Positions 43,196-56,769 of a stretch of DNA of 64,000 nucleotides are shown here, in pieces. The notes beneath the pieces are model-generated. The model made no database searches. It saw nothing but the letters and a program-made list of their open reading frames with translations, and was not told where the DNA came from. The translations under genes were made by a program, and so were the position numbers. Source of the stretch: Nitratireductor alexandrii (GTDB taxonomy: Bacteria; Pseudomonadota; Alphaproteobacteria; Rhizobiales; Rhizobiaceae); NCBI RefSeq assembly GCF_004000215.1, contig NZ_RBVY01000005.1, positions 124,001 to 188,000 of the forward strand, written 5' to 3'. The stretch's first letter is position 1; each line of letters opens with the position of its first letter.

Positions 43196-44575
43196 CTATC
43201 TGCCGCGCAGGTCGCGCGCGGCCAGGTCGAGCGCCCTTGCGATCCGCTTGCAGGCCATGTCGATCGTCTCCCTGGTCCAGATCAGCGGCGGCGACAGGAT
43301 CATGGTGTCGTTGACGGCCCGCATCATCAGCCCGTTGGCGATCGCGTGGTCGCGCACCAGGGAGGCGGCGCGCCCGACCGGATCGAACCGCGTCTTGGTC
43401 TCTTTGTCCTTGACGATCTCGATCGCCGCCAGCAGGCCGAAACTGCGGATTTCGCCGACGAGCGCGTGATCGCCGAGCTTTTGCCTCAAGGCCTCGCCCA
43501 GATACGGTCCGGTATCCTCGGCCACCCGCGCGACCAGCCCCTCGCGTTCGATGATCTCGAGGTTCTTCAGCGCCACCGCGCAGGCGACCGGATGGCCGGA
43601 ATAGGTGTAGCCGTGAAAGAACTCGCCGCCCTTCTCGACCAGGGTGGTGGCGATGCGGTCGCCGACCAGGAGCGCCGACAGCGGCTGGTAGCCCGAGGTG
43701 AGCGCCTTGGCGGTGGTGATCGTGTCGGGCTCGATGCCCATCGACTGTGCCGCAAACCAGGCGCCGGTGCGGCCGTAACCGGTGATCACCTCGTCGAGCA
43801 TCAGCAAGACATCGTATTTGCGGCAGATACGCTGGATCTCGGGCCAGTAGCTCGCCGGCGGGATCTTGACCCCGCCCGCCCCCATCACCGGCTCGCCGAT
43901 GAAGGCGGCGACTGTGTCCGGCCCAGCCTCCAGGATCGCGTCTTCGAGCGCGCGCGCCGCGCGCAGGCCGAAATCTTCGTCGCTTTCGCCCGCCTCGGCC
44001 AGTTCGTAGGCATAAGGCGGCATGACATGGACGATGTTGGGCACCGCGCCGTGCAACTGGTCGTGCATGGCCGCCATCCCGCCCAGCGACGCGCCGGCGA
44101 TCGTCGAGCCGTGATAGGCCCAGTCGCGCGAGATCACCCGGTTCTTCTCCGGCTTGCCTTCCAGCGCCCAGTAATGGCGCACCAGCCGCAGCGCGGTGTC
44201 GTTGGCTTCCGAGCCCGACGAGCCGTAAAACACCTGGTTGATGCCGTCGGGAGCGAGTTCGGCCAGCTTCTTGGCCAGCAGAACCGGCGTCGGCGTGGAA
44301 CAGCGGAAGAAGGCGTTGTAGTAAGGCAGCTCCTTCATCTGCTCATAAGCCACCTCGGCGAGTTCGTCCCGGCCGTAACCGACATTCACACACCAAAGCC
44401 CGGCCATGCCGTCCAGGATCTCGTTGCCGTCCATGTCATAGACGAACGGCCCGTCGGCGCGGGCAATGATGCGGCTGCCGGCGGCGCGCAGGTCCTTGTG
44501 ATCGGTGAACGGATGCAGATGATGCGCGGCGTCGGCCTGGCGAAGCTGCGCAAGCGAATAGTTCTGATAGGTCAT
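43196..44575 (-). CDS. Class III omega-aminotransferase
   Basis: This 459-residue PLP enzyme belongs to the class III family. The PLP Lys lies in TTAKALTSGYQPLSA, the cofactor Asp in LLMLDEVITGYGRTG, and GSSGSEANDTALRL is the phosphate loop. Relatives include putrescine-, beta-alanine- and taurine-pyruvate aminotransferases, and the substrate cannot be told from sequence alone. It is transcribed divergently from the MttB-like gene, across 386 bases without a gene. The context suggests an amine or betaine product, but this is inference. Confidence 0.9.
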   Translation of the reverse strand: MTYQNYSLAQLRQADAAHHLHPFTDHKDLRAAGSRIIARADGPFVYDMDGNEILDGMAGLWCVNVGYGRDELAEVAYEQMKELPYYNAFFRCSTPTPVLLAKKLAELAPDGINQVFYGSSGSEANDTALRLVRHYWALEGKPEKNRVISRDWAYHGSTIAGASLGGMAAMHDQLHGAVPNIVHVMPPYAYELAEAGESDEDFGLRAARALEDAILEAGPDTVAAFIGEPVMGAGGVKIPPASYWPEIQRICRKYDVLLMLDEVITGYGRTGAWFAAQSMGIEPDTITTAKALTSGYQPLSALLVGDRIATTLVEKGGEFFHGYTYSGHPVACAVALKNLEIIEREGLVARVAEDTGPYLGEALRQKLGDHALVGEIRSFGLLAAIEIVKDKETKTRFDPVGRAASLVRDHAIANGLMMRAVNDTMILSPPLIWTRETIDMACKRIARALDLAARDLRGR

Positions 44576-44829: not shown

Positions 44830-44872
44830 ATGTCGCATTTGTCTTGGCGGCAACCGGCCGCCATGTCGCATT
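44830..44872. promoter_or_regulatory. Tandem direct repeat in the aminotransferase-mttB intergenic region
   Basis: ATGTCGCATT occurs at 44830-44839 and again at 44863-44872, a 33-base period, about three helical turns. It lies 90-132 bases before the mttB-like start. Spaced direct repeats suit AraC/GlxA-type activators, which control betaine genes in many bacteria; that match is inferred. The rest of the 386-bp gap (44576-44961) holds nothing I recognise. Confidence 0.45.
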
Positions 44873-44961
44873 GCTTGCCCTTATGGTCGCCGCCTCCCCT
44901 ATCGGCACGACCGGGATCGGCGACAATGCCCCCCCGCCTCGAAACAACGCCGGAGCCTCGC

Positions 44962-46542
44962 ATGAGCCTTGAAACCCCGCCGCCCCCTCCCGCAGCGACC
45001 GGCGAGCGCGGACGGCGCGGCGGACGCGCGGGCAAGCGCGCGGGACATGCGGCGGCCGGCATAGACCAGCCCCCCTTCCGCCAGCACGCCCTGCCGTTCC
45101 AGCCGACGGCGCTAATGTCGGACGACGAACTGGAATCCATCCATCTCGCCTCGCTGCGCGTGCTCAAGGAGATCGGCATCGACGTGCTGCACGACGAGGC
45201 GCGCGCGCTGATGAAAAAGGCCGGCGCCGACGTCGCCCCCGGGTCGGTGCGGGTGCGTTTCGATGCCGATATGATCATGGAGCAGATGGCGCATTGTCCG
45301 CCTGAATTCACGCTGCACGCCCGCAACCCCGCACACAATGTCCGCTTCGGCGGCAACAATGTCATTTTTTCGCTGATGGCCTCGGCGCCCAATTGCTGCG
45401 ACACCGATTCCGGCCGCCGGCCCGGCAACCAGCTCGACTACCGCAACCTGCTCAAGCTCGGTCAGCAGCACAACATCATCCAGTGCACGGGCGGCTATCC
45501 GGTCGAGCCGATCGACGTCCATCCCTCGATACGGCACCTGGAATGCATCCGCGACCTGGCGCTTTTGACCGACAAGGCCTTCCACATCTATTCGCTCGGC
45601 AAGGAGCGCAATCTCGACGGCATCGAGATCGCCCGCATCGCGCGCGGCATCTCCCGCGAACAGCTTGCAAACGAGCCTTCGACCTTCACCATCATCAACA
45701 CCAACTCGCCGCTCAAGCTCGACATCCCGATGATGGAAGGCATCATCCAGATGGCCGGCGCCGGACAGGCCGTCATCGTCACCCCGTTCACGCTGGCCGG
45801 CGCGATGGCGCCGGTCACGGTCGCCGGCGCGCTGGTGGAACAGAACGCCGAGGCGCTGGCCGGCCTCGCCTTCGCGCAGATGGTCAGAAGGGGAACGCCG
45901 GTCGGGTATGGCGGCTTCACCTCCAATGTCGACATGAAGTCGGGCGCGCCCGCCTTCGGCACGCCCGAATATATGAAGGCCCAGCTCGTCGGCGGCCAGC
46001 TCGCCCGCCGCTACAAGGTTCCCTACCGCACCTCCAATGTCTGCGCGGCCAACACAGTCGACGCCCAGGCCGCCTATGAAAGCGTGTTTTCGCTATGGGG
46101 CGCGATCCAGGGCGGCGGCAATCTTCTCATGCACGGCGCCGGCTGGCTCGAGGGCGGGCTGCAATGTTCCTACGAAAAGCTCATGCTCGACATCGAGCTT
46201 CTGCAGATGGTGGCCGAATTCATGAGCCCGCTCGACCTGTCGCAGGACGCGCTCGGCATCGAGGCCATGCGCCAGGTCGGTCCCGGCGGGCATTTTTTCG
46301 GCACCCCCCACACCCAGTCGCGCTACAAGACCGCCTTCTACGCGCCGATCATCTCCGACTGGCGCAATTACGAGAACTGGCAGCTCGCCGGCAGCCCGAC
46401 CGCCATCGAACGCGCCAACACGCTGTGGAAGGAACGGCTGGCGGCCTACGAAAAACCGCCGATAGACCCGGCGATCGAGGAGGAACTCAACGATTTCGTC
46501 GACCGCCGCATCGCCGAGGGCGGCGCCCCGACGGATTTTTGA
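44962..46542 (+). CDS. Non-pyrrolysine MttB-family methyltransferase
   Basis: This 526-residue protein belongs to the trimethylamine methyltransferase (MttB) superfamily, with a TIM barrel carrying SPLKLDIPMMEG and FTLAGAMAPVTVAGA. It is open in frame throughout, with no amber codon, so it belongs to the non-pyrrolysine group whose known members demethylate glycine betaine, proline betaine or carnitine and pass the methyl to a corrinoid protein. No corrinoid protein gene is in the window. The first 45 residues are basic, Pro- and Gly-rich and probably disordered. ATG 44962 fits, though an upstream frame is open. It starts a plus-strand row with M24 and dimethylglycine dehydrogenase genes. Confidence 0.85.
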   Translation: MSLETPPPPPAATGERGRRGGRAGKRAGHAAAGIDQPPFRQHALPFQPTALMSDDELESIHLASLRVLKEIGIDVLHDEARALMKKAGADVAPGSVRVRFDADMIMEQMAHCPPEFTLHARNPAHNVRFGGNNVIFSLMASAPNCCDTDSGRRPGNQLDYRNLLKLGQQHNIIQCTGGYPVEPIDVHPSIRHLECIRDLALLTDKAFHIYSLGKERNLDGIEIARIARGISREQLANEPSTFTIINTNSPLKLDIPMMEGIIQMAGAGQAVIVTPFTLAGAMAPVTVAGALVEQNAEALAGLAFAQMVRRGTPVGYGGFTSNVDMKSGAPAFGTPEYMKAQLVGGQLARRYKVPYRTSNVCAANTVDAQAAYESVFSLWGAIQGGGNLLMHGAGWLEGGLQCSYEKLMLDIELLQMVAEFMSPLDLSQDALGIEAMRQVGPGGHFFGTPHTQSRYKTAFYAPIISDWRNYENWQLAGSPTAIERANTLWKERLAAYEKPPIDPAIEEELNDFVDRRIAEGGAPTDF

Positions 46543-46559: not shown

Positions 46560-47816
46560 ATGACCATGCTCGACTGGCATGCGGGCCGCAGCGACCTTGC
46601 CGAGATCGCCACGCTCGACCGCGCGCCGCAGACCGAAGAGATCGACCTGGTCGCGGTACGCGGCTACCGGCTGGCGCGCCTGCGCGCCGAAATGGCGCGA
46701 CGCGACATCGCCGCCCTGATCCTGTCTGACCCGGTCAACATCCGCTATGCGACCGGCACGCGCAACATGCAGGTCTTTTCGGCCCGCAACGCGCCCTCGC
46801 GCTACCTGCTCGTTACCGGCGATCGCACCATCCTCTACGAGTTCACCGGCTGCATGCATCTGGCGGCCGGTTTCGAGACGGTCGACGAGGTGCGGCCGGC
46901 GCTCACCGCCAGCTTCGTCGCCGCTGGGCCGCGCATCGCCGCGCGCGAACGCGCCTGGGCCAAGGAGATGGCGCTGACACTGAAAGAGCTGGTGGGCGCG
47001 CGCGCCACGGTCGGATTGGAGCGCATGAACGCCGGCGCGGCCCTGGCGCTCGGCGCGCACGGGGTCAGGCTGGTCGATGCGCAGGCGCCGGTGGAGATGG
47101 CGCGCGCGATCAAGTCGGCGGAGGAGATGAAATGCGTGCGCGCCTCGCTGCGCGCCACCGAAACCGCGGTTGCGCTCATGCGCGCCGCGCTCCGCCCCGG
47201 CATCTCCGAAAACCAGCTCTGGTCGGTGCTGCACCAGGCCGTGATCGCCCAAGACGGCGACTATTGCGAGACCCGGCTGCTGTCGTCGGGCGCGCGCACC
47301 AATCCCTGGTTTCAGGAGAGCGGGCCGCGGATCATCGGCGCGAACGAGTTGATCGCGCTCGACACAGACGTCGTCGGCTGCCACGGCTATTATTCCGATT
47401 TCTCGCGCAGCTTTCATTCCGGCCCCGCAAAACCGAGCCCGGCGCAGCGCACGCTCTACAAGACCGCCCGCGAGCAGGTCGAGCACAACATGGCGATCAT
47501 CCGGCCCGGACTCAGCTTCCGCGACTACGCCGAACGCGCCTGGGACATTCCCGAACGCTACCACGCCAATCGCTACTACCTGTCGGCGCATGGCTGCGGC
47601 ATGACCGGCGAATACCCCTATCTCTACCACCGCGCCGACTTCGCCGACGCCGGTTATGACGGCGTGATCGAACCCGGCATGACGCTGTGCGTGGAAAGCT
47701 ATATCGGCGAGGACGGCGGACACGAGGGCGTCAAGCTCGAACAGCAGATCCTGGTGACCGAAACCGGCACGGAGCTGTTGTCGGAATTTCCCTTCGAGGA
47801 TGCGCTGATGGCGTGA
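46560..47816 (+). CDS. M24-family DddP-like protein lacking the proposed catalytic Asp
   Basis: This 418-residue protein has the M24 (pita-bread) fold and DddP-like signatures such as DPVNIRYATGTRNMQ. The metal ligands are intact: Asp268, Asp270, Asp280, His344, Glu379 and Glu394. In DddP the His is followed six residues on by a catalytic Asp (Asp377 in Ruegeria, recalled); here that position is Gly350, in HGCGMTGEYPY. It is therefore not expected to be a standard DMSP lyase. It may hydrolyse another substrate, such as a betaine-derived compound or a peptide. It starts 17 bases after the MttB-like gene and precedes the dehydrogenase gene by 63 bases, so an operon is likely. Confidence 0.83.
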   Translation: MTMLDWHAGRSDLAEIATLDRAPQTEEIDLVAVRGYRLARLRAEMARRDIAALILSDPVNIRYATGTRNMQVFSARNAPSRYLLVTGDRTILYEFTGCMHLAAGFETVDEVRPALTASFVAAGPRIAARERAWAKEMALTLKELVGARATVGLERMNAGAALALGAHGVRLVDAQAPVEMARAIKSAEEMKCVRASLRATETAVALMRAALRPGISENQLWSVLHQAVIAQDGDYCETRLLSSGARTNPWFQESGPRIIGANELIALDTDVVGCHGYYSDFSRSFHSGPAKPSPAQRTLYKTAREQVEHNMAIIRPGLSFRDYAERAWDIPERYHANRYYLSAHGCGMTGEYPYLYHRADFADAGYDGVIEPGMTLCVESYIGEDGGHEGVKLEQQILVTETGTELLSEFPFEDALMA

Positions 47817-47879
47817 CCAGCACCTGAATCGCGATGTGAAGACCATGATTCATTGTTTGAAGAAAGCGGACACAAAGGC

Positions 47880-50456
47880 ATGAAATCACACGTCAAAGCG
47901 GTTGTGATCGGCGGCGGGGTCGTCGGCTGCTCGGTGCTCTACCATCTGGCACGGGCCGGCTGGACCGACGTGATGCTGATCGAGCGTTCCGAACTGACTT
48001 CCGGCTCGTCCTGGCATGCCGCAGGCGGCTTCCACACGCTCAACGGCGACCCCAACGTAGCCCGTCTCCAGGCCTATACGGTCCAGCTCTACAAGGAGCT
48101 GGAAGAGTTATCCGGCCAGTCCTGCTCGCTGCATCTGACCGGCGGCGTGATGATGGCCGACAGTCCCGAACGGATGGATTTCCTGCGGCTCGCCCACGCC
48201 AAGGGCCGTTATCTCGGCATGGACACCGAGCTGATCACGCCGTCGGAAGCCAAGGCGATGTTTCCGCTGATGGACGAGACGAATTTCGTCGGCGCGATGT
48301 GGGATCCGGTCGAGGGCCATCTCGATCCTTCCGGCACCACCCACGCCTACGCCAAGGCGGCCAAAAAACTCGGCGCCGAGATCGTGCTCAGGAACCGCGT
48401 CACCGAGCTGACCCAGGAAGCGGACGGCACCTGGAACGTGGTCACCGAACAGGGCACGGTGAAGGCCGAGCACGTGGTCAATTGCGGCGGGCTGTGGGCG
48501 CGCGAGGTCGGCCGCATGGTCGGGCTCGAACTGCCGCTGCTGGCCATGGAACACATGTATCTGCTGACCGAGCCCATGCCGGAGGTGGAGGCGTTCAACC
48601 GAGCCACCGGGCGCGAAATGGTCGGCGTGCTCGACTTCAAGGGCGAGATCTATACCCGCCAGGAACGCAACGGCATCCTGCTCGGCACCTACGAAAAGGC
48701 CTGCAAGCCCTGGTCGCCGCAAACCACGCCGTGGGAGTTCGGCCACGAGCTCCTGCAGCCCGACCTCGACCGCATCGCACCGTCGCTGGAAATCGGCTTC
48801 AAGCATTTCCCCGGCATCGAAAAGGCCGGCATCAAGCAGGTCATCAACGGCCCCTTCACCTTCGCCCCCGACGGCAACCCACTGGTCGGCCCGGTTCAGG
48901 GGCTGACCAATTTCTGGGTGGCGTGCGCGGTCATGGCCGGGTTTTCGCAGGGCGGCGGCGTCGGTCTGGCGCTGTCGAACTGGATGGTAAACGGCGATCC
49001 GGGCTTCGACGTATGGGGCATGGACGTCGCCCGCTTCGGCGAGTGGGCGAGCCTGCGCTACACCAACGCCAAGGTGCGCGAAAACTATTCCAGGCGCTTT
49101 TCGATCCGCTTTCCCAACGAGGAACTGCCGGCCGCCCGGCCCGCCCAGACGACGCCGCTCTACGACGTGATGGTGCGCGACAACAACGCCGTCATGGGCG
49201 ATTCCTGGGGACTGGAAACGCCGCTCTGGTTCGCGCCCGAGGGCACGGAAGCGAAAGATATCGTCTCCTTCCACCGCTCCAACGATTTCGAGCATGTCGG
49301 TCGCGAGGTGCGTGCCGTGCGCGAGCGCGTCGGCGTGACCGAGATCGCCAATTTCGCCAAATACCAGGTCACCGGTCCCGGCGCGGAAGACTTTCTCAAC
49401 CGGCTGATGACCAATCGCATGCCGAAGCCGGGACGCCTGGTGCTGACCCCGATGCTCAACGAATTCGGCAAGCTGATCGGCGATTTCACCATCGCCAAGG
49501 CCGGCGACGAGCGTTTCATGATCTGGGGCTCATCGGCCGCCGCCATCTATCACATGCGCTGGTTCGAAAAGCATCTGCCCAAGGACGGGTCGGTGCGCAT
49601 CCACCGCTTCGACCAGACCCTGGTCGGCCTATCGATCGCCGGGCCGCGTGCCCGCGACGTGCTGCAGGAACTGGTCGACGAGGATGTCTCCAACGCCGCC
49701 TTCCGCTTCATGGATTTCCGCGAGATGGCGGTCGCCGGCGCGCCCTGCATGGTCAACCGCGTCACCTATACCGGCGACCTCGGCTACGAGATCTGGATGC
49801 CGCCGGCTTATGAGCGCCTGGTCTATCAGGCGATCAAGGACGCCGGCGCACAGCACGGCATCACCGATTTCGGCATGCGCGCGCTGCTGTCGATGCGGCT
49901 TGAAAAGAACTTTCCGACCTGGTTCCGCGAGCTCCGGCCGATCTACGGACCATTCGAGGGCGCGATGGAGCGCTTCGTCAAGCTGGAAAAGAACGACTTC
50001 ATCGGCCGCGACGCGGCCGCGAAGGAGGCGAAGGACGGCCCCGGGCTGCGGCGGGTCTCGATGATCATCGATGCGCTCGACGCCGACGTGATGGGCGACG
50101 AGCCGGTCTGGGCGCGCGTTCAAGGAAAGGATTTCGGCACGGTCGAGCCGCCGCACGGCTACGGGGCGCCGCGTTTCGACGCCAGCGGGACCGAGACCCG
50201 GCTCTCCAAAGCCGATCACGGCGCCTCGTCGGTGCGTGGCCTCCGCGACGGCGACTGGAGCGTGGTCGGCTGGGTGACGTCGGGCGGCTACGCCCATCAT
50301 GTCGGGCTGTCGATGGCGCAGGCCTACGTACCGGCGGCACTCGCCGACCAGGAGAGCGAAAACCTGTTCGAGATCGAGATTTTGGGCGAGAGGCGGCCGG
50401 CGCGCATCACGGTCGAGGCGCCGTTCGATCCCGGCGGCGACAAGATGAGGGGGTAG
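47880..50456 (+). CDS. Dimethylglycine/sarcosine dehydrogenase-like FAD protein with GcvT domain
   Basis: This 858-residue protein has an FAD domain with the GxGxxG motif in VIGGGVVGCSVLYHLA and SGSSWHAAGGFH, whose His is the likely site of covalent FAD. The second half (about residue 430 onward) is a folate-binding GcvT aminomethyltransferase domain. This is the dimethylglycine dehydrogenase arrangement, giving demethylation with transfer of the one-carbon unit to tetrahydrofolate. The C-terminal GcvT region contains an unusual 50-residue stretch around residues 760-810 (GTVEPPHGYGAP). It lies after the M24 gene. The exact methylamine is unknown; dimethylglycine fits the betaine context. Confidence 0.88.
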   Translation: MKSHVKAVVIGGGVVGCSVLYHLARAGWTDVMLIERSELTSGSSWHAAGGFHTLNGDPNVARLQAYTVQLYKELEELSGQSCSLHLTGGVMMADSPERMDFLRLAHAKGRYLGMDTELITPSEAKAMFPLMDETNFVGAMWDPVEGHLDPSGTTHAYAKAAKKLGAEIVLRNRVTELTQEADGTWNVVTEQGTVKAEHVVNCGGLWAREVGRMVGLELPLLAMEHMYLLTEPMPEVEAFNRATGREMVGVLDFKGEIYTRQERNGILLGTYEKACKPWSPQTTPWEFGHELLQPDLDRIAPSLEIGFKHFPGIEKAGIKQVINGPFTFAPDGNPLVGPVQGLTNFWVACAVMAGFSQGGGVGLALSNWMVNGDPGFDVWGMDVARFGEWASLRYTNAKVRENYSRRFSIRFPNEELPAARPAQTTPLYDVMVRDNNAVMGDSWGLETPLWFAPEGTEAKDIVSFHRSNDFEHVGREVRAVRERVGVTEIANFAKYQVTGPGAEDFLNRLMTNRMPKPGRLVLTPMLNEFGKLIGDFTIAKAGDERFMIWGSSAAAIYHMRWFEKHLPKDGSVRIHRFDQTLVGLSIAGPRARDVLQELVDEDVSNAAFRFMDFREMAVAGAPCMVNRVTYTGDLGYEIWMPPAYERLVYQAIKDAGAQHGITDFGMRALLSMRLEKNFPTWFRELRPIYGPFEGAMERFVKLEKNDFIGRDAAAKEAKDGPGLRRVSMIIDALDADVMGDEPVWARVQGKDFGTVEPPHGYGAPRFDASGTETRLSKADHGASSVRGLRDGDWSVVGWVTSGGYAHHVGLSMAQAYVPAALADQESENLFEIEILGERRPARITVEAPFDPGGDKMRG

Positions 50457-50519: not shown

Positions 50520-51278
50520 ATGACCAACGACACCCGCTCGCCCCGCCTCGCCGTACTGATCGACGCCGACAACGCCTCGGCGCGCATCGCCGACGGCCTT
50601 TTCGACGAAATCGCCAAGATCGGCGAGGCCAGCGTGCGGCGCATCTATGGCGATTTTTCCGGCACACGCTCCAAGGGATGGGCCGACATCCTGGCCCGTC
50701 ACGCCATCATTCCGCACCAGCAATTCGCCTACACGACCGGCAAGAACGCCTCCGACATCACGCTGGTGATCGACGCCATGGATTTGTTGCACAGCGGCCG
50801 GTTCGACGGGTTCTGCCTGGTCTCGTCCGACAGCGACTTCACCCGGCTCGCAGCCCGCATCCGCGAACAGGGCGTGGACGTCTACGGCTTCGGCGAGCGC
50901 AAGACGCCGGAAAGCTTCCGCCAGGCCTGCCGCCGCTTCATCTACACCGAAAACCTCTTGCCGGGCGCGGCCGCCAATCAGGAGCCCGACGCCGAAAAGG
51001 CCAAGCCGCTGCAGCCGCCGAGCGCCGCGACCCCGATCATCACCAAGGTGATCGAGCAGATGGACAGCGACGACGGCTGGGTGCCGCTGGGGGCGGTGGG
51101 CACGCATCTGGCCAATCTGGCGTCCGATTTCGATCCCCGCACCTACGGGTTTCGCAAACTGTCCGACCTGGTGCGCAAGACCAACGCCTTCGAGATCGAC
51201 CATCCCGAGGGCGGCGCGCTGCGCATCCGCCTCAAGCCGGAAGGCAAGGCCGGCGGCGGGCGGGCAAAAAGGGCCTGA
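50520..51278 (+). CDS. NYN-domain nuclease-like protein with OST-HTH/LOTUS domain
   Basis: This 252-residue protein begins with a NYN (PIN-like) domain: LAVLIDADNAS and CLVSSDSDFTRLA give the conserved Asp residues expected to bind Mg. Residues 175-240 (ITKVIEQMDSDDGWVPLG ... DFDPRTYGFRKLSDLVR) form an OST-HTH/LOTUS domain, a fold linked to RNA binding. The protein is probably an RNA-directed nuclease. It sits among methylamine genes by chance or by a shared transcript, 63 bases after the dehydrogenase. I chose ATG 50520; an upstream frame start at 50481 is possible. Confidence 0.9.
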   Translation: MTNDTRSPRLAVLIDADNASARIADGLFDEIAKIGEASVRRIYGDFSGTRSKGWADILARHAIIPHQQFAYTTGKNASDITLVIDAMDLLHSGRFDGFCLVSSDSDFTRLAARIREQGVDVYGFGERKTPESFRQACRRFIYTENLLPGAAANQEPDAEKAKPLQPPSAATPIITKVIEQMDSDDGWVPLGAVGTHLANLASDFDPRTYGFRKLSDLVRKTNAFEIDHPEGGALRIRLKPEGKAGGGRAKRA

Positions 51279-51410: not shown

Positions 51411-52790
51411 ATGGAAACTTCTGATCCCAAAGGCCTTTTCGGCCGGCATCGCAAGATTATGCCGTTTTCGCCGGACGATGCGGCGATCGCCGGCCAGCCC
51501 GATGCGGCATTGTTGCGCGCCGCCCGCGACAAGGCCGCCGCGCTTAACCAACATGTGCTCGGCTACGGCGCGCTCGCCGAGGCCGAATGGGCGGCCGCCG
51601 GCATTCCGGCACCCGATCTGGCGGCCATGCGGACCTACCGGCTCGAGCGCCTGCGTGCCGAACTCGCGCGCCGCGACTATGCGGGACTGATCGTCTACGA
51701 TCCCGTCAACATCCGCTACGCCACCGATTCCACCAATATGCAGCTTTGGGTGACGCACAACGCCACCCGCTTCTGCTTCGTGGCGACCGACGGCCCGGTG
51801 ATCCTCTATGATTATCACCACAGCGAACATTTGTCGGACCATGCCGGCGTGGTCGACGAGGTCCGGCCCTGCCTGTCGACGATCTTCATGTATGGCGGCG
51901 ACCTGATCGAGGAGCGGATCGGCCGCTGGGCCGACGAGGTCGCCGCCCTCGTCGCCGAGACCTGCGGCGGCAATCGCCGTATCGCCGTCGACTGCCTGCA
52001 GCCCGGCGCCCATGCGGCGCTGATCGCGCGCGGCATCAAGGTGCATGACGGCCAGCAGGTGATCGAGCGCGCCCGCGCGGTCAAGTCCGCCGACGAGATC
52101 GTGTGCATGCGCCGCGCGGTCGTGGCCTGCGAGCGCGCCATGGCCGAGATGGAGGCCGGCCTGCGCCCGGGCATGAGCGAAAACGACCTATGGGCGCTGC
52201 TTCACCACGGCAATATCGTGCGCGGCGGCGAATGGATCGAGACCCGGCTGCTGGCCTCGGGCCCGCGCACCAATCCCTGGTTCCAAGAATCCTCCGCGCG
52301 TATCATCGAAGCCGGCGATCTCGTCGCCTTCGACACCGATCTGATCGGTCCCTACGGGTTCTGCGCCGACCTGTCGCGCACCTGGCTCGCTGGCGACGGC
52401 AGCCCCAGCGACGAGCAGCGCGCGCTCTACCGCATCGCCGCCGACCAGGTCGCCCACAATATGGACTTGTTGCGGCCCGGCCTGTCGTTTCGCGACTTGT
52501 GGGAGACGGCGAAATCCCTGCCGGCCGACTGCCTGCCCAACCGCTATGGCTGCCTCTATCACGGGGTCGGACTGTGCGACGAATACCCGACCATTCCCTA
52601 TCGCGACGACGTCGAGCCCGACATTCCGGCCGACGAGATATTGGTGCCGGGCATGGTGTTGTGCGTTGAAAGCTATACCGGCCGGCTCGGCGGCCATGAG
52701 GGCGTGAAACTGGAGGAGCAGGTGCTGATCACCGAGACCGGGTTCGAAAAACTCTCCGCCTACCCGCTCGACGCGCGGCTGAGCGGCTGA
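51411..52790 (+). CDS. dddP: M24-family DddP homologue, candidate DMSP lyase
   Basis: This 459-residue protein matches remembered DddP sequences over most of its length: DPVNIRYATDSTNMQLW, GGEWIETRLLASGPRTNPWFQ, FDTDLIG and YGCLYHGVGLCDE. Metal ligands Asp308, Asp310, Asp320, His384, Glu420 and Glu435 are present, and Asp390 occupies the position of the catalytic Asp377. DddP splits dimethylsulfoniopropionate into DMS and acrylate. The ATG at 51411 follows a perfect AGGAGGAGAC. It lies after NYN-LOTUS and overlaps the opposite-strand PhnD-like gene by 31 bases. An undefined M24 hydrolase is the alternative. Confidence 0.75.
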   Translation: METSDPKGLFGRHRKIMPFSPDDAAIAGQPDAALLRAARDKAAALNQHVLGYGALAEAEWAAAGIPAPDLAAMRTYRLERLRAELARRDYAGLIVYDPVNIRYATDSTNMQLWVTHNATRFCFVATDGPVILYDYHHSEHLSDHAGVVDEVRPCLSTIFMYGGDLIEERIGRWADEVAALVAETCGGNRRIAVDCLQPGAHAALIARGIKVHDGQQVIERARAVKSADEIVCMRRAVVACERAMAEMEAGLRPGMSENDLWALLHHGNIVRGGEWIETRLLASGPRTNPWFQESSARIIEAGDLVAFDTDLIGPYGFCADLSRTWLAGDGSPSDEQRALYRIAADQVAHNMDLLRPGLSFRDLWETAKSLPADCLPNRYGCLYHGVGLCDEYPTIPYRDDVEPDIPADEILVPGMVLCVESYTGRLGGHEGVKLEEQVLITETGFEKLSAYPLDARLSG

Positions 52791-53593
52791 TCCGGCCCGC
52801 CGGCGGCGAGCGCGCCGGCTATGCGCGCGTGCAGGGGCGCCAGGGCGGCGGCCGAAATATAGGGCAGGCCCGGACGCCGGGCGGTCCAGCCAACCGGCAC
52901 GAGGTCGGCGGCGGCCGGCTCGAACCGTTTCCCCAAACGCCAGCTCCGGCAGTCGACGGCGCAAATATCCGCCCGGCCCGCCGCGACGGCCTCGATCGAG
53001 GCGCGGTGGCCGCCGGTTTCGATGCGGTCGCCAAAGATATCGAAGCCTTCGCCGGCGGCGGCGAGGTCGCGGGAAAGCGCGATCAGGCCGGACATCGACG
53101 CGGTTTCGTTGAAGGCAAGCCGCCCGCCCCGCAGCCGCTCGAGCGGCAGCACGGCACCGCCCTCGGCCGGCGCGGCGACGGGATCGGCCTGGCCCCGGCG
53201 CATCAGGATCGCACTCGAATAAAACGGCCCGGCCCCGCCCTCGAAGGCGGAATAGTCCGGCTGGCCGACGACGCCGACATGGGCGGCGAGCCCGGTCACC
53301 TCCATCGGGCCCCAGCAGGTCTGGGCGACAAGCAGGCGCGGATGGCGCCACAGCGTGGCGAAATCGAGCCCGTCCGGCGGCAGGGTTGCCGGATCGGGCG
53401 CGATCAGCGCCCCGGCCGCGTCGCGGATGCCGCCCGGCACGGCCGGCATGTCGGCGTTGCGCCGCACGAGTTGCGCCGGCGCATCCACGCCGGCCGCGCG
53501 CAGCCGCCCGGCCATCGCCGCCCACTGGGCGTCTGTCTCGGCCCGGCATTCGGGCCAGTCATACATCGGCAAGGCGGCGATAAAGGCGCTCAT
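52760..53593 (-). CDS. PhnD/SsuA-like periplasmic-type substrate-binding protein
   Basis: This 277-residue protein resembles the PhnD-like (PF12974) family of substrate-binding proteins: AALPMYDWPECRAETDAQW at the start and the RLAFNETASMSG plus GRADICAVDC segments later. I see no clear signal peptide, so it may be cytoplasmic or have an unusual export signal. No permease or ATPase gene is adjacent. Its last ten codons overlap the dddP-like gene end to end. The ligand is unknown. Confidence 0.78.
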   Translation of the reverse strand: MSAFIAALPMYDWPECRAETDAQWAAMAGRLRAAGVDAPAQLVRRNADMPAVPGGIRDAAGALIAPDPATLPPDGLDFATLWRHPRLLVAQTCWGPMEVTGLAAHVGVVGQPDYSAFEGGAGPFYSSAILMRRGQADPVAAPAEGGAVLPLERLRGGRLAFNETASMSGLIALSRDLAAAGEGFDIFGDRIETGGHRASIEAVAAGRADICAVDCRSWRLGKRFEPAAADLVPVGWTARRPGLPYISAAALAPLHARIAGALAAGGPDQPLSRASSG

Positions 53594-53642: not shown

Positions 53643-54653
53643 TCACTCCTTCGGCGGCCTGGCGGGCACCAGCGACGTTCCGGCGACACCGTCGACGCTG
53701 CGGCTGCGCTGACGCGGGCGAAAAGCGCGGCCCGGCTCGGGCGCCCGACGCAGCGCCGGGTGGACGACCGGTTCCTTCGCCCGAAAGGCGAAGCTGCGGA
53801 AGAGTGCGAAATAATTGGCGAACACATAGCCCTCGTTGCGGGCGATCCATTCCCGGCGCCGTTCGGCAAACAGTCTCGGCAGCCGGTACCACGGCGCCTG
53901 CGGCAGCGTGTGGTGGACGAGATGCAGATTGTTGTTGAGAAAAAGCAGCGCCAGCGGCGAGCGCTCGACGATGATGGTGCGCCCGTCGGGCCGTTCCGAC
54001 CATTGGTGCTCGGCATAGGTTCTAACCGAGATCAAAGCCTGTCCGATCCACACCGGGCCGACGATGTAAAGCCAGAGCGGCATGTGGAAGACGAACACGA
54101 TCACCGGCGCCACGATCACCAGCCCCGCCGCGTGCAACAGCCAGGCCCGGCGCACCGCGCCGGCCCCGCGCAGCATCAGCCCGGCATCGGTGATAAAAAA
54201 ACCGAGACTGCCGAGCCAGGGGTTGAGCAGCATGCGCCCGGCCATGGTGTTGTTGACGCGCAGCAAAAACTTCATCGCCGCCGGCATCGCCTCGTAGCGC
54301 CACAGGGCCTGGTAGTAGCTTTCGGGATCGTCGAACGGGTCGGTCAGCCGCTCGTCGGCGTGATGGCGCAGATGGATCGAGCGAAAGCGCCGATAGGGCC
54401 ACACCAGCCCGAGTGGCACAAAGACCAGCGCCTCGTTGATCCGCGCGTTGCGTGTGGGGTGGCCGTGGCAGACCTCGTGCATCAAAGACGCCTGCAGCGC
54501 CAGCACGATGCCGAGCAAGACGATCGCGGCCAACGGCCAGTGCGGCCAGACGAAAAGGCCGATGCCGATCCAGGCGCCGTAGCAGACCACGATCAAGGCC
54601 ACGGTCGGCCATTCGACGGCGCCAAGACCGCCGCGAGAATATGTTCGGTTCAT
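53643..54653 (-). CDS. Fatty acid desaturase
   Basis: This 336-residue membrane protein has the three His boxes of the integral-membrane desaturase/hydroxylase family: HEVCHGH, HLRHH and HLVHH. About four hydrophobic spans surround them. It oxidises acyl chains using a di-iron centre and oxygen. The ATG at 54653 abuts an AGGA; a TTG at 54662 is the other candidate. It is divergent from an XRE regulator gene, with an 18-bp dyad in between, and is likely controlled by it. Confidence 0.87.
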   Translation of the reverse strand: MNRTYSRGGLGAVEWPTVALIVVCYGAWIGIGLFVWPHWPLAAIVLLGIVLALQASLMHEVCHGHPTRNARINEALVFVPLGLVWPYRRFRSIHLRHHADERLTDPFDDPESYYQALWRYEAMPAAMKFLLRVNNTMAGRMLLNPWLGSLGFFITDAGLMLRGAGAVRRAWLLHAAGLVIVAPVIVFVFHMPLWLYIVGPVWIGQALISVRTYAEHQWSERPDGRTIIVERSPLALLFLNNNLHLVHHTLPQAPWYRLPRLFAERRREWIARNEGYVFANYFALFRSFAFRAKEPVVHPALRRAPEPGRAFRPRQRSRSVDGVAGTSLVPARPPKE

Positions 54654-54775
54654 TCCTGTCAATTGCCTTTGCTGTGGAATCGACCGATTCCTGACAGGAA
54701 GATGTCAGCAGATATTGTTTCCGACAACGCGAGAACGCGCACGAATTGTTTATTTTGCGCATATTGCCCATCTAA

Positions 54776-54793
54776 TGTTTACTGTTGTAAACA
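54776..54793. promoter_or_regulatory. Operator-like dyad between desaturase and XRE regulator genes
   Basis: TGTTTAC-TGTT-GTAAACA has perfect seven-base arms and lies 45-62 bases before the XRE start and 123-140 before the desaturase start. Its place and symmetry suit binding by the adjacent regulator, controlling its own gene and perhaps the desaturase. This is inference. Confidence 0.55.
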
Positions 54794-54837
54794 ATACCGG
54801 TTCCAAGACGTGGGGCAGCCGGGGGAGGCAAACGACC

Positions 54838-55689
54838 ATGGACAAGCGCGATCTTTCCGGACAATTCCGCGAGCGGCTGAAGGCGCTGGTTCAGCGCTCC
54901 GGCGCCAATCAGTCCGCTTTCGCCGCCGGTGTCGGCATCGACCGCTCGGCCTTGTCGCAGCTCCTGTCCGGCGCCACGACCCGGCTGCCGCGCGCCGAGA
55001 CCCTGATGAACATCGCCGAGCGCCACCGCGTGTCGCTCGACTGGCTTTTGGGGCTGAGCCAAGACGAGGGCTTGACCGGCGAAATCCGCGAAACCTTCGA
55101 GATCGAGGAAGGCGGCGGCGCCTTCGACCGCACGCTTTTGGCGAAATGGCACGCCGAGGCGGCGGGCACCAAGATCCGCTACGTGCCGGCCGGCCTGCCC
55201 GACCTTCTGCGCACCGACGCGCTGATCGAGTACGAGGCCAACATCACCAGCCGCAGCCGCGAAAGCCAGTACGACGAAACCCAGTACCGGATCGACTATA
55301 CGCGCCGCCCGGAGACCGACATGGAAGTGTGCATGCCGCGCCACATGCTCGACATCTTCGCCGCCGGCATGGGGGTGTGGAACGAATTTCCCGAACGCCT
55401 GCGCCGCGCCCAGCTCGAGCATATGGCGCGCCTGCTCGACGAGCTCTACCCCGCCTTCCGGCTATTCCTGTATGACGGGCTGGCGCGTTATTCGATCCCC
55501 TACACGATCTTCGGCCCCTACCGCGCCGCGATCTTCGCCGGCGACATGTATCTGGTCTTGAACGCGACCTCGGCCATCCAGACGCTGACGCGCCATTTCG
55601 ACAATCTGATCCGCGCCGCCATTATCAACCCGCACGAGGCCGCCGCCTATGCCGCCTCGCTCGCCAGCCTGCCTCCACGGCGCGATTGA
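54838..55689 (+). CDS. XRE-family transcriptional regulator
   Basis: This 283-residue protein has an N-terminal helix-turn-helix (about residues 10-70, with NQSAFAAGVGIDRSALSQLLSG) and a larger C-terminal part with no motif I can name. The C-terminal region (residues 110-283) probably senses a ligand. The ATG at 54838 follows GGGGGAGGC; upstream codons are in frame but would cross the dyad at 54776. It is divergent from the desaturase gene and 60 bases before the betaine-homocysteine methyltransferase gene. A role in membrane lipid or methyl-group control is inferred. Confidence 0.85.
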   Translation: MDKRDLSGQFRERLKALVQRSGANQSAFAAGVGIDRSALSQLLSGATTRLPRAETLMNIAERHRVSLDWLLGLSQDEGLTGEIRETFEIEEGGGAFDRTLLAKWHAEAAGTKIRYVPAGLPDLLRTDALIEYEANITSRSRESQYDETQYRIDYTRRPETDMEVCMPRHMLDIFAAGMGVWNEFPERLRRAQLEHMARLLDELYPAFRLFLYDGLARYSIPYTIFGPYRAAIFAGDMYLVLNATSAIQTLTRHFDNLIRAAIINPHEAAAYAASLASLPPRRD

Positions 55690-55749: not shown

Positions 55750-56769
55750 ATGCCCAATCCGATCGAGGCCCTTCTGGCCGAAAAGGGCGTGCTCCTCGCC
55801 GACGGCGCCACCGGCACCAACCTGTTCGCGATGGGGCTTTTATCGGGCGAGGCACCGGAGCTCTGGAACGAAACCGAGCCCGACAAGATCGCCGCCCTGC
55901 ATCGCGGTTTCGTCGAGGCCGGTTCCGACATCATCCTGACCAATTCCTTCGGCGGCACCCGCCACCGGCTGAAACTGCACCAGGCCGAGGACCGCGTCTT
56001 CGAACTGAACCGGCGCGCGGCCGAACTGGCCCGCGCCGTCGCCGACGCGGCCGGCCGGCGGGTGATCGTCGCCGGCTCGGTCGGGCCGACCGGCGAGCTA
56101 TTGCAGCCGCTCGGCGCGATGACCTATGCCGAAGCCGTCGAGGCCTTCGCCGAGCAGATCGAGGGGCTGAAGGCGGGCGGCGCCGAGGTCGCCTGGATCG
56201 AGACCATGTCCTCGCCCGAAGAAATCCGCGCCGCCGCCGAGGCCGCGATCCGCGTCGGCCTGCCGTACAGCTTCACCGCTTCCTTCGACACGGCCGGCCG
56301 CACCATGATGGGGCTTGCGCCCTGCGACATTCACGGCGTGGTGGCGGATCTCGCGGAGGCCCCGCTCGGGGTCGGCGCCAATTGCGGCGTCGGCGCCTCC
56401 GACATCCTGGCGTCGCTGTTCGACATCACCGAAGCCGATCCGGCCGCCACCGTGATCGTCAAGGGCAATTGCGGCATCCCCGAATTCCGCGGTTCCGAGA
56501 TTCATTATTCCGGGACGCCGGAGCTGATGGCCGACTATGTGCGGCTCGCCGTCGACGGCGGCGCGAAGATCATCGGCGGCTGCTGCGGCACCTCGTTCGA
56601 GCATCTGGCCGCCATGCGCACCGCGCTCGACGCGCATCAGCGTGGTGAGCGCCCGAGCGTGGATGCGGTGGTGGCGCGCATCGGCCCGCTGCGCAACAAG
56701 ACGGCCGACCAGAGCGGTCAGGCGGCAGGCGGCGAAAGCCGCCGGGAACGCCGCCGCGTGCGCGGCTGA
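55750..56769 (+). CDS. bmt: Betaine-homocysteine S-methyltransferase-like protein
   Basis: This 339-residue protein is a homocysteine S-methyltransferase. Zinc ligands fit Cys in GANCGVG and the pair in GGCCGTS, and the N-terminal DGATGTNLFAMGL segment is the family start. It transfers a methyl group from betaine or a related donor to homocysteine to make methionine, in the cytoplasm. The C-terminal 25 residues are basic and unlike the fold. A SahR-like palindrome lies upstream. Dimethylglycine, the product from betaine, would suit the dehydrogenase encoded at 47880. Confidence 0.88.
   Translation: MPNPIEALLAEKGVLLADGATGTNLFAMGLLSGEAPELWNETEPDKIAALHRGFVEAGSDIILTNSFGGTRHRLKLHQAEDRVFELNRRAAELARAVADAAGRRVIVAGSVGPTGELLQPLGAMTYAEAVEAFAEQIEGLKAGGAEVAWIETMSSPEEIRAAAEAAIRVGLPYSFTASFDTAGRTMMGLAPCDIHGVVADLAEAPLGVGANCGVGASDILASLFDITEADPAATVIVKGNCGIPEFRGSEIHYSGTPELMADYVRLAVDGGAKIIGGCCGTSFEHLAAMRTALDAHQRGERPSVDAVVARIGPLRNKTADQSGQAAGGESRRERRRVRG

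Follow-up and report, generated by a model that had tools for sequence, protein, structure and literature searches.

DMS is a climate-active gas, and DddP is a marine enzyme that produces it from DMSP. The residue numbering of DddP and its proposed catalytic base, Asp377, have been reported (PMC4108388); according to a review, a Trp residue of DddP contacts the sulfur of the substrate. The SAR116 strain IMCC1322 was reported to make DMS and to raise dddP expression on DMSP (PMC4304780). In sediments, dddP was prominent in Pseudomonas and Mesorhizobium as predicted by HMM; the finding of dddP in Mesorhizobium is thus already published, as a prediction (PMC7039863). Besides RlDddP and RdDddP, ratified DddPs include AoDddP, FgDddP, F. 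culmorum DddP, OdDddP1 (G5CZD9), OdDddP2 (G5CZE7), and the DddP of a scallop symbiont; the symbiont and both accessions are given in PMC10989825. A different system, the mtg gene set, was linked in R. pomeroyi to the demethylation of glycine betaine and to the synthesis of methionine, and mtg genes are said to be colocalized in S. meliloti (PMC12478193). Here, we describe a close cousin of DddP in a soil-type bacterium, encoded in the neighborhood of betaine-related genes.

The window, a stretch of 64,000 nucleotides from Nitratireductor alexandrii, encodes this protein, P0001. Its reading frame is open over the full length, starts with ATG and is preceded at a distance of 5 bases by GAGGAG, a good ribosome-binding site. 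PF00557, Creatinase_N, and the pita-bread fold are all present, identifying P0001 as a member of the M24 metallopeptidase superfamily. A phmmer search of the PDB returned RlDddP (4rzy, E 1.6e-119) and RdDddP (4b28, E 7.5e-113) as best matches, and the first non-DddP family was prolidase with an E-value of 6e-17; because of this gap, the similarity of P0001 to DddP is far beyond chance. The nearest solved relatives of P0001 are DddP DMSP lyases, with 48% identity to RlDddP. A structure model was built from 23 aligned sequences and reached a mean pLDDT of 83, with values below 50 at residues 1–21 and 109–113, the latter including W113. Comparison with RlDddP (4s01) by Foldseek yielded TM scores of 0.84/0.88 and an rmsd of 1.9; other M24 enzymes among the 50 matches listed reached 0.57–0.68 by query length. 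Creatinase (1chm, 7yto) and ectoine hydrolase (6yo9) were fold matches, and the non-DddP structures listed were 16–23% identical to P0001. The model predicts a DddP-type fold with an intact two-metal site and the Tyr379/Asp390 pair.

A DddP homologue with a complete catalytic set had been proposed in the sequence-only reading, and alignment to DddP confirmed that all residues named were in place. The metal ligands Asp295, Asp297, Asp307, His371, Glu406, and Glu421 of DddP correspond to Asp308, Asp310, Asp320, His384, Glu420, and Glu435 of P0001; the proposed base aligns with Asp390 and Tyr366 with Tyr379. Numbering is shifted by 13 at five positions, as had been noted, and by 14 at both Glu residues. 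Trp113 is by alignment the equivalent of the sulfur-contacting Trp; the latter is presumably W95 in DddP, and no publication on DddP Trp95 was found in our literature search. The motifs GGEWIETRLLASGPRTNPWFQ and HGVGLCDE, described as near-identical to DddP, turned out to be identical in the RlDddP chain (4rzy).

From these features P0001 had been read as a DMSP lyase. Homology, fold, and catalytic set were borne out; the step to DMSP lyase was not. Residues and motifs are not diagnostic. The full pattern W-D-D-D-Y-H-D-E-E was found in 43/43 rows of the DddP clade described below and in 84/113 rows outside it; being common to 127 of the 156 DddP-like rows, it was rejected as proof of function. 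The Asp377 equivalent was kept in 137/156 rows and the equivalents of Tyr366 and Asp297 in all 156, and none of the eight outgroup M24 rows kept the three together. An exact GGEWIETRLLASGPRTNPWFQ occurred in 11/23 rhizobial rows of the P0001 clade versus 5/43 DddP-clade rows; hence, it was discarded as a DddP marker. As a typical motif of the DddP clade, HGVGLCDE occurred in 41/43 of its rows, yet it was also found in 29/113 rows outside, among them P0001 and a total of 3/23 P0001-clade rows, and was therefore not accepted as an exclusive marker.

For phylogenetic analysis, 246 loci were reduced to 231 open frames exceeding 150 bits and dereplicated to 153 rows; together with P0001 (the same protein as row L001), two sequences from the PDB, and an outgroup of eight rows, 164 rows were analyzed with FastTree. 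RlDddP and RdDddP served as DddP anchors; AoDddP, FgDddP, OdDddP1, and OdDddP2 were not among the rows. FastTree yielded a DddP clade of 43 rows with a support of 0.998 that did not include P0001, and ordered the neighboring groups differently from IQ-TREE, at a low support of 0.38–0.88. In the maximum-likelihood tree calculated with IQ-TREE for 71 rows, the DddP clade comprised RlDddP, RdDddP, SAR116-like, Psychrobacter, Leucothrix, and Pseudomonas sequences, a Nitratireductor MAG, and others; it reached 100/100 with P0001 outside, so the placement among DddP sequences expected from the sequence-only reading was not borne out. The clade of P0001 (16 rows, 95/89) contained sequences from rhizobia, Chloroflexota, an Actinomycetes MAG, Burkholderia, gammaproteobacterial MAGs, and others. 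Both clades were sisters at 89/85, which is under the starred support level. Forcing the P0001 clade together with the roseobacterial rows was rejected (AU p 2.5e-70), a test of one extreme alternative only. Judged by these trees, P0001 lies outside the DddP clade, in a group that is sister to the DMSP lyases.

P0001 scored 487 bits with the DddP family model NF043017, below the curated NCBIfam cut-off of 600. Scores above it were obtained for RlDddP (866), L168 (830), L156 (674), L109 (612), and the Pseudomonas row L116 (606); L105 from Leucothrix (588), the SAR116-like L286 (535), L096 from Chloroflexota (513), L038 (484), and L149 (408) remained below. Since L105 and L286 belong to the DddP clade, the cut-off is stricter than this clade and was rejected as sole judge. 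Furthermore, five positions split the clades, with P34/T35/F155/C217/G282 in DddP and Y52/G53/W173/R235/S295 in P0001, which carries 0/5 of the DddP-clade marks; these marks were derived from our own grouping and are not a published criterion. Two plasmid-encoded proteins named DddP by NCBI (L373, L376) and located outside the mark-defining set had 5/5 marks each, and two plasmid proteins named Xaa-Pro peptidase had 0 and 1. W173 and S295 were also considered as markers of the link to MttB and DMGDH and rejected, being about as frequent in unlinked relatives; they mark only absence from the DddP clade. P0001 resembles DddP in its predicted active site, but tree, score, and marks put it outside DddP.

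P0001 is the last gene of a string with the order MttB-family methyltransferase, M24 paralogue, DMGDH, NYN/LOTUS protein, P0001 (Table 1). The solved chains nearest to the MTTB protein were 4yyc (putative trimethylamine methyltransferase), 2qne, and 9yce (glycine betaine methyltransferase), and a reading of the substrate from the MttB subfamily was not decisive. The best solved match of the DMGDH-type protein was mitochondrial DMGDH (5l46, 572 bits). In the paralogue M24b, W113 is replaced by F and D390 by G, so that both Trp and base are lost; it was found in genomes G002 and G035 and not seen in G001. Some close M24b relatives (L022, L208, L209) also adjoin MttB and DMGDH.

Table 1. Features encoded at the P0001 locus (positions within the window).
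Feature	Position	Strand	Remarks
Class III aminotransferase (PRK07480, 716 bits)	43196..44575	-	divergent neighbor in many rhizobial loci
MTTB-family methyltransferase (PF06253, 639 bits)	44830..46542	+	start uncertain; homology from near 45013
M24b, second DddP-like M24 paralogue	46560..47816	+	48% to P0001; start set by eye
DMGDH-type FAD oxidoreductase fused to GcvT domain	47853..50456	+	start uncertain
NYN + OST-HTH/LOTUS domain protein	50520..51278	+	start set by eye
P0001, DddP-like M24 metalloenzyme	51411..52790	+	459 aa; W113, D308, D310, D320, Y379, H384, D390, E420, E435
PhnD-like protein (PF12974)	52760..53593	-	conserved convergent neighbor in rhizobial clade
Desaturase/hydroxylase-like protein	53643..54662	-	weak beta-carotene hydroxylase/GntB matches; conserved neighbor
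HTH regulator (PF01381)	54715..55689	+	conserved neighbor; start uncertain
Homocysteine S-methyltransferase (PF02574), MtgE/Bhmt-like by domain	55750..56769	+	domain match

In the rhizobial loci compared, the order aminotransferase, MttB, DMGDH, P0001, PhnD-like, desaturase-like, HTH regulator, homocysteine S-methyltransferase is largely kept; exceptions are L042, which is rearranged, and L090, located just outside the rhizobial clade, with no DMGDH nearby. Genome G003 of the same genus has MttB, DMGDH, the PhnD-like and desaturase-like genes and M24b and lacks a P0001 orthologue; hence, P0001 is dispensable for the gene string. The NYN/LOTUS gene lies between DMGDH and P0001 in the window and in G001, L087, L093, L094, and L209; it was not seen in G002 or the other rhizobial loci compared. 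No signal peptide was evident by eye in the PhnD-like protein. L214 and L353 also have both the PhnD-like and the desaturase-like gene in the vicinity of DddP-like genes, and L303 and L347 have one of them.

Gene context was scored for 135 of 155 distinct DddP-like rows; 20 were dropped because of short or absent flanks. Within 6 kb, members of the P0001 clade had MttB in 17/20 and DMGDH in 20/20 cases, the latter always on the same strand. As to the three without MttB, the gene is located at a greater distance in L209 and L093, and L212 is close to the end of its contig. The corresponding numbers were 0/37 and 3/37 for the DddP clade; 14/52 each for the remaining rows that carry the complete residue set (both genes in 12/52); and 5/26 and 7/26 for other rows lacking it (both in 4/26). 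Neither gene was found within 6 kb of 36 full-set relatives outside both clades. By chance, about 1% (MttB) and 2% (DMGDH) would be expected from the gene density of this genome, with its 8 GcvT-type matches as stand-in for DMGDH. When a distance of 3 kb and the same strand were demanded, the P0001 clade retained DMGDH in 18/20 and MttB in 0/20 cases, because MttB lies beyond DMGDH; other full-set rows had MttB in 9/52, DMGDH in 6/52, and both in 4/52, and the DddP clade had 0/37 and 1/37. Among the DddP-clade rows dropped for short flanks, L111 has MttB on the opposite strand and L112 a weak DMGDH (30%). As the rows are related, these counts are not independent events; the 15 rows with both genes require at least seven changes on the 71-row tree (63 rows with context). 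The trio of MttB, DMGDH, and DddP-like gene recurs in the gammaproteobacterial MAGs L115 and L117 and in the alphaproteobacterial loci L313, L317, and L318.

A complete mtgB-C-D-type set is located on the same contig a few kb to the right of the window, about 15–25 kb from P0001 (L310, G000 contig C36:186000-202000). At 191–201 kb, the contig carries mtgB, mtgC, DUF1638, MTHFR (metF-like), pterin-binding (mtgD), and RACo genes; hence, PF06253, B12-binding, and pterin-binding proteins are encoded together there, as expected for an MtgBCDE locus. The genome encodes four MTTB proteins, including the one in the window. Together, the MttB-family, DMGDH-type, and mtg-type genes support the betaine-linked cluster that had been suggested from the window.

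P0001 orthologues were detected in two of three other genomes of the genus searched (97 and 85%), with none in G003, and in 4/33 further genomes of the family, the Rhizobiaceae as defined in GTDB; including the same-genus genomes, identities ranged from 65 to 97%. In accordance with the view of the genome as non-roseobacterial, Mesorhizobium and Aminobacter also carry orthologues at 66–71%, and all eight genomes of genus g335 possess one (68–71%). P0001 is not simply the DddP of its family, since G007 and G013 of the same family hold DddP-clade members (L206 with 58% and L019 with 63% identity to RlDddP). Of 178 plasmid records with a DddP-like gene, 152 were from Rhizobium or Sinorhizobium, and 119 of all records were typed as conjugative. 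Four of the 30 plasmid records listed (Oceanisphaera, Paracoccus) bear the name DddP, and the other annotated ones are called Xaa-Pro peptidase. Two of the DddP-named plasmid genes (Oceanisphaera, Paracoccus) had, within the stretches shown, no neighbor with an MttB or DMGDH label; the Oceanisphaera stretch, for which the gene table is incomplete, has FAD oxidoreductases. On a Rhizobium plasmid, a relative with the full residue set is flanked by genes for a Rieske oxygenase, a hydroxyproline epimerase, and an ABC transporter for glycine betaine/proline, and another on a Pseudomonas plasmid adjoins a BCCT transporter. The genome studied here encodes a third DddP-like protein (L003, G000 contig C3) with the Asp base kept and Phe in place of Trp; a Rieske oxygenase gene and another DMGDH-type gene adjoin it (L003/L309 locus).

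We favor, with a probability of roughly 60%, the reading that P0001 is a metallo-lyase of the DddP-like M24 kind, with a methylated onium compound of the betaine type as substrate, within a betaine-demethylation pathway. In such a pathway, the binuclear metal center would hold the carboxylate of the small methylated onium compound, Asp390 would abstract a proton, with cleavage of the C-N (or C-S) bond; MttB would hand methyl groups to a corrinoid protein and DMGDH would hand them to folate. A quaternary-ammonium betaine or related osmolyte is the probable natural substrate of P0001; DMSP would be no more than one among several. We infer all of these substrate statements; the gene neighborhood demonstrates an association and not a reaction.

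Like glycine betaine, DMSP is a zwitterionic osmolyte. The main rival explanation, possible although clearly less probable, is that P0001 represents an outlying but functional DddP in an osmolyte-catabolism cluster, yielding DMS and acrylate, with acrylate passed on to an AcuI-like reductase. P0001 could share DMSP lyase activity because all DddP catalytic residues are kept and the clades are sisters; identity and fold similarity to RlDddP point in the same direction, as does HGVGLCDE, which is rare in the clade of P0001 itself. The strongest point is that FgDddP is reported to be functional at 32% identity to RdDddP, and AoDddP at 50% (PMC4108388), so that such an activity of P0001 is conceivable. 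The genome also contains a gene of the AcuI/YhdH family (445 bits, cut-off 297 bits); however, YhdH-family matches occurred in 13/14 control genomes, two of them over the cut-off, and no DmdA exceeded its cut-off in the genome (best 138 vs. 410 bits). Position in the tree, profile score, and clade marks all argue against a DddP, and the neighbors come from enzyme families that handle N-methyl groups.

Rather improbable is a hydrolase like creatinase or prolidase that releases N-methylated glycine or proline and thereby supplies the neighboring dehydrogenase. Creatinase and ectoine hydrolase share the fold, the adjoining DMGDH would take a methylated glycine, and several such relatives are named "Xaa-Pro peptidase family protein" by NCBI; however, the equivalents of Asp297, Tyr366, and Asp377 are kept together in P0001, as in none of the outgroup rows, identities to the non-DddP structures listed are low, and RlDddP was reported to be inactive on a dipeptide (PMC5395565). 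An accidental linkage in a Rhizobiaceae osmolyte island of unrelated genes, with a role of P0001 unconnected with MttB and DMGDH, would fit the NYN/LOTUS gene and the degenerate M24 paralogue sharing the island and the deviations in loci L042 and L090 and in genome G003, but is very unlikely given the same-strand DMGDH within 6 kb in all 20 scored clade members and the recurrence of the trio in distant alphaproteobacteria and gammaproteobacterial MAGs.

The reading of P0001 as a betaine-type metallo-lyase can be extended, tentatively and with low confidence, to a widespread unrecognized family: DddP-like M24 proteins may be betaine lyases or hydrolases that act on C-N bonds together with methyl-transfer systems in soil and sea, with the marine DddP as a specialized branch that departed from this setting and switched to C-S cleavage, and P0001 on the nitrogen-betaine side. 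Betaine catabolism would then be a concrete setting from which DddP may have evolved. Labeling genes of this kind as DMS producers is unsafe unless an assay supports it, because tree position and neighbors suggest a role in betaine breakdown. Should the rhizobial clade act on a nitrogen betaine, dddP counts that include it could overstate the DMS potential; should it act on DMSP, soil rhizobia would have to be added to the DMS producers. The five clade marks together with the gene string provide a means of sorting DddP-like sequences.

Compared with known systems, P0001 shares the fold with creatinase, ectoine hydrolase, and prolidase, but differs from them by an identity of only 16–23% and by the DddP residue set, absent from the outgroup M24 rows (0/8). 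With the mtgBCDE system reported for R. pomeroyi and S. meliloti (PMC12478193), the P0001 region has in common PF06253, B12-binding and pterin-binding proteins, MTHFR, RACo, and PF02574. P0001 is an added component; the terms "peptidase", "M24", "creatinase", and "DddP" are absent from the main text of that paper, and no publication tying DddP-like or M24 proteins to betaine demethylation loci was found in our searches of open-licence papers. The "Xaa-Pro peptidase family" proteins of rhizobial plasmids (for example, Rhizobium sp. TAL182, L374) resemble P0001 in having the full residue set, no DddP marks, and betaine neighbors, but they are only 45% identical, belong to another clade and occur in a Rieske/hydroxyproline epimerase context instead of MttB/DMGDH. 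DddP itself (RlDddP 4rzy/4s00/4s01, RdDddP 4b28; NF043017) shares with P0001 the M24 fold, the six metal ligands, Tyr366, Asp377, and Trp, and both motifs are identical in RlDddP; P0001 differs from it by its position outside the 100/100 clade, a score of 487 versus 600, the replacement of all five marks, and the string of MttB and DMGDH in which it is encoded.
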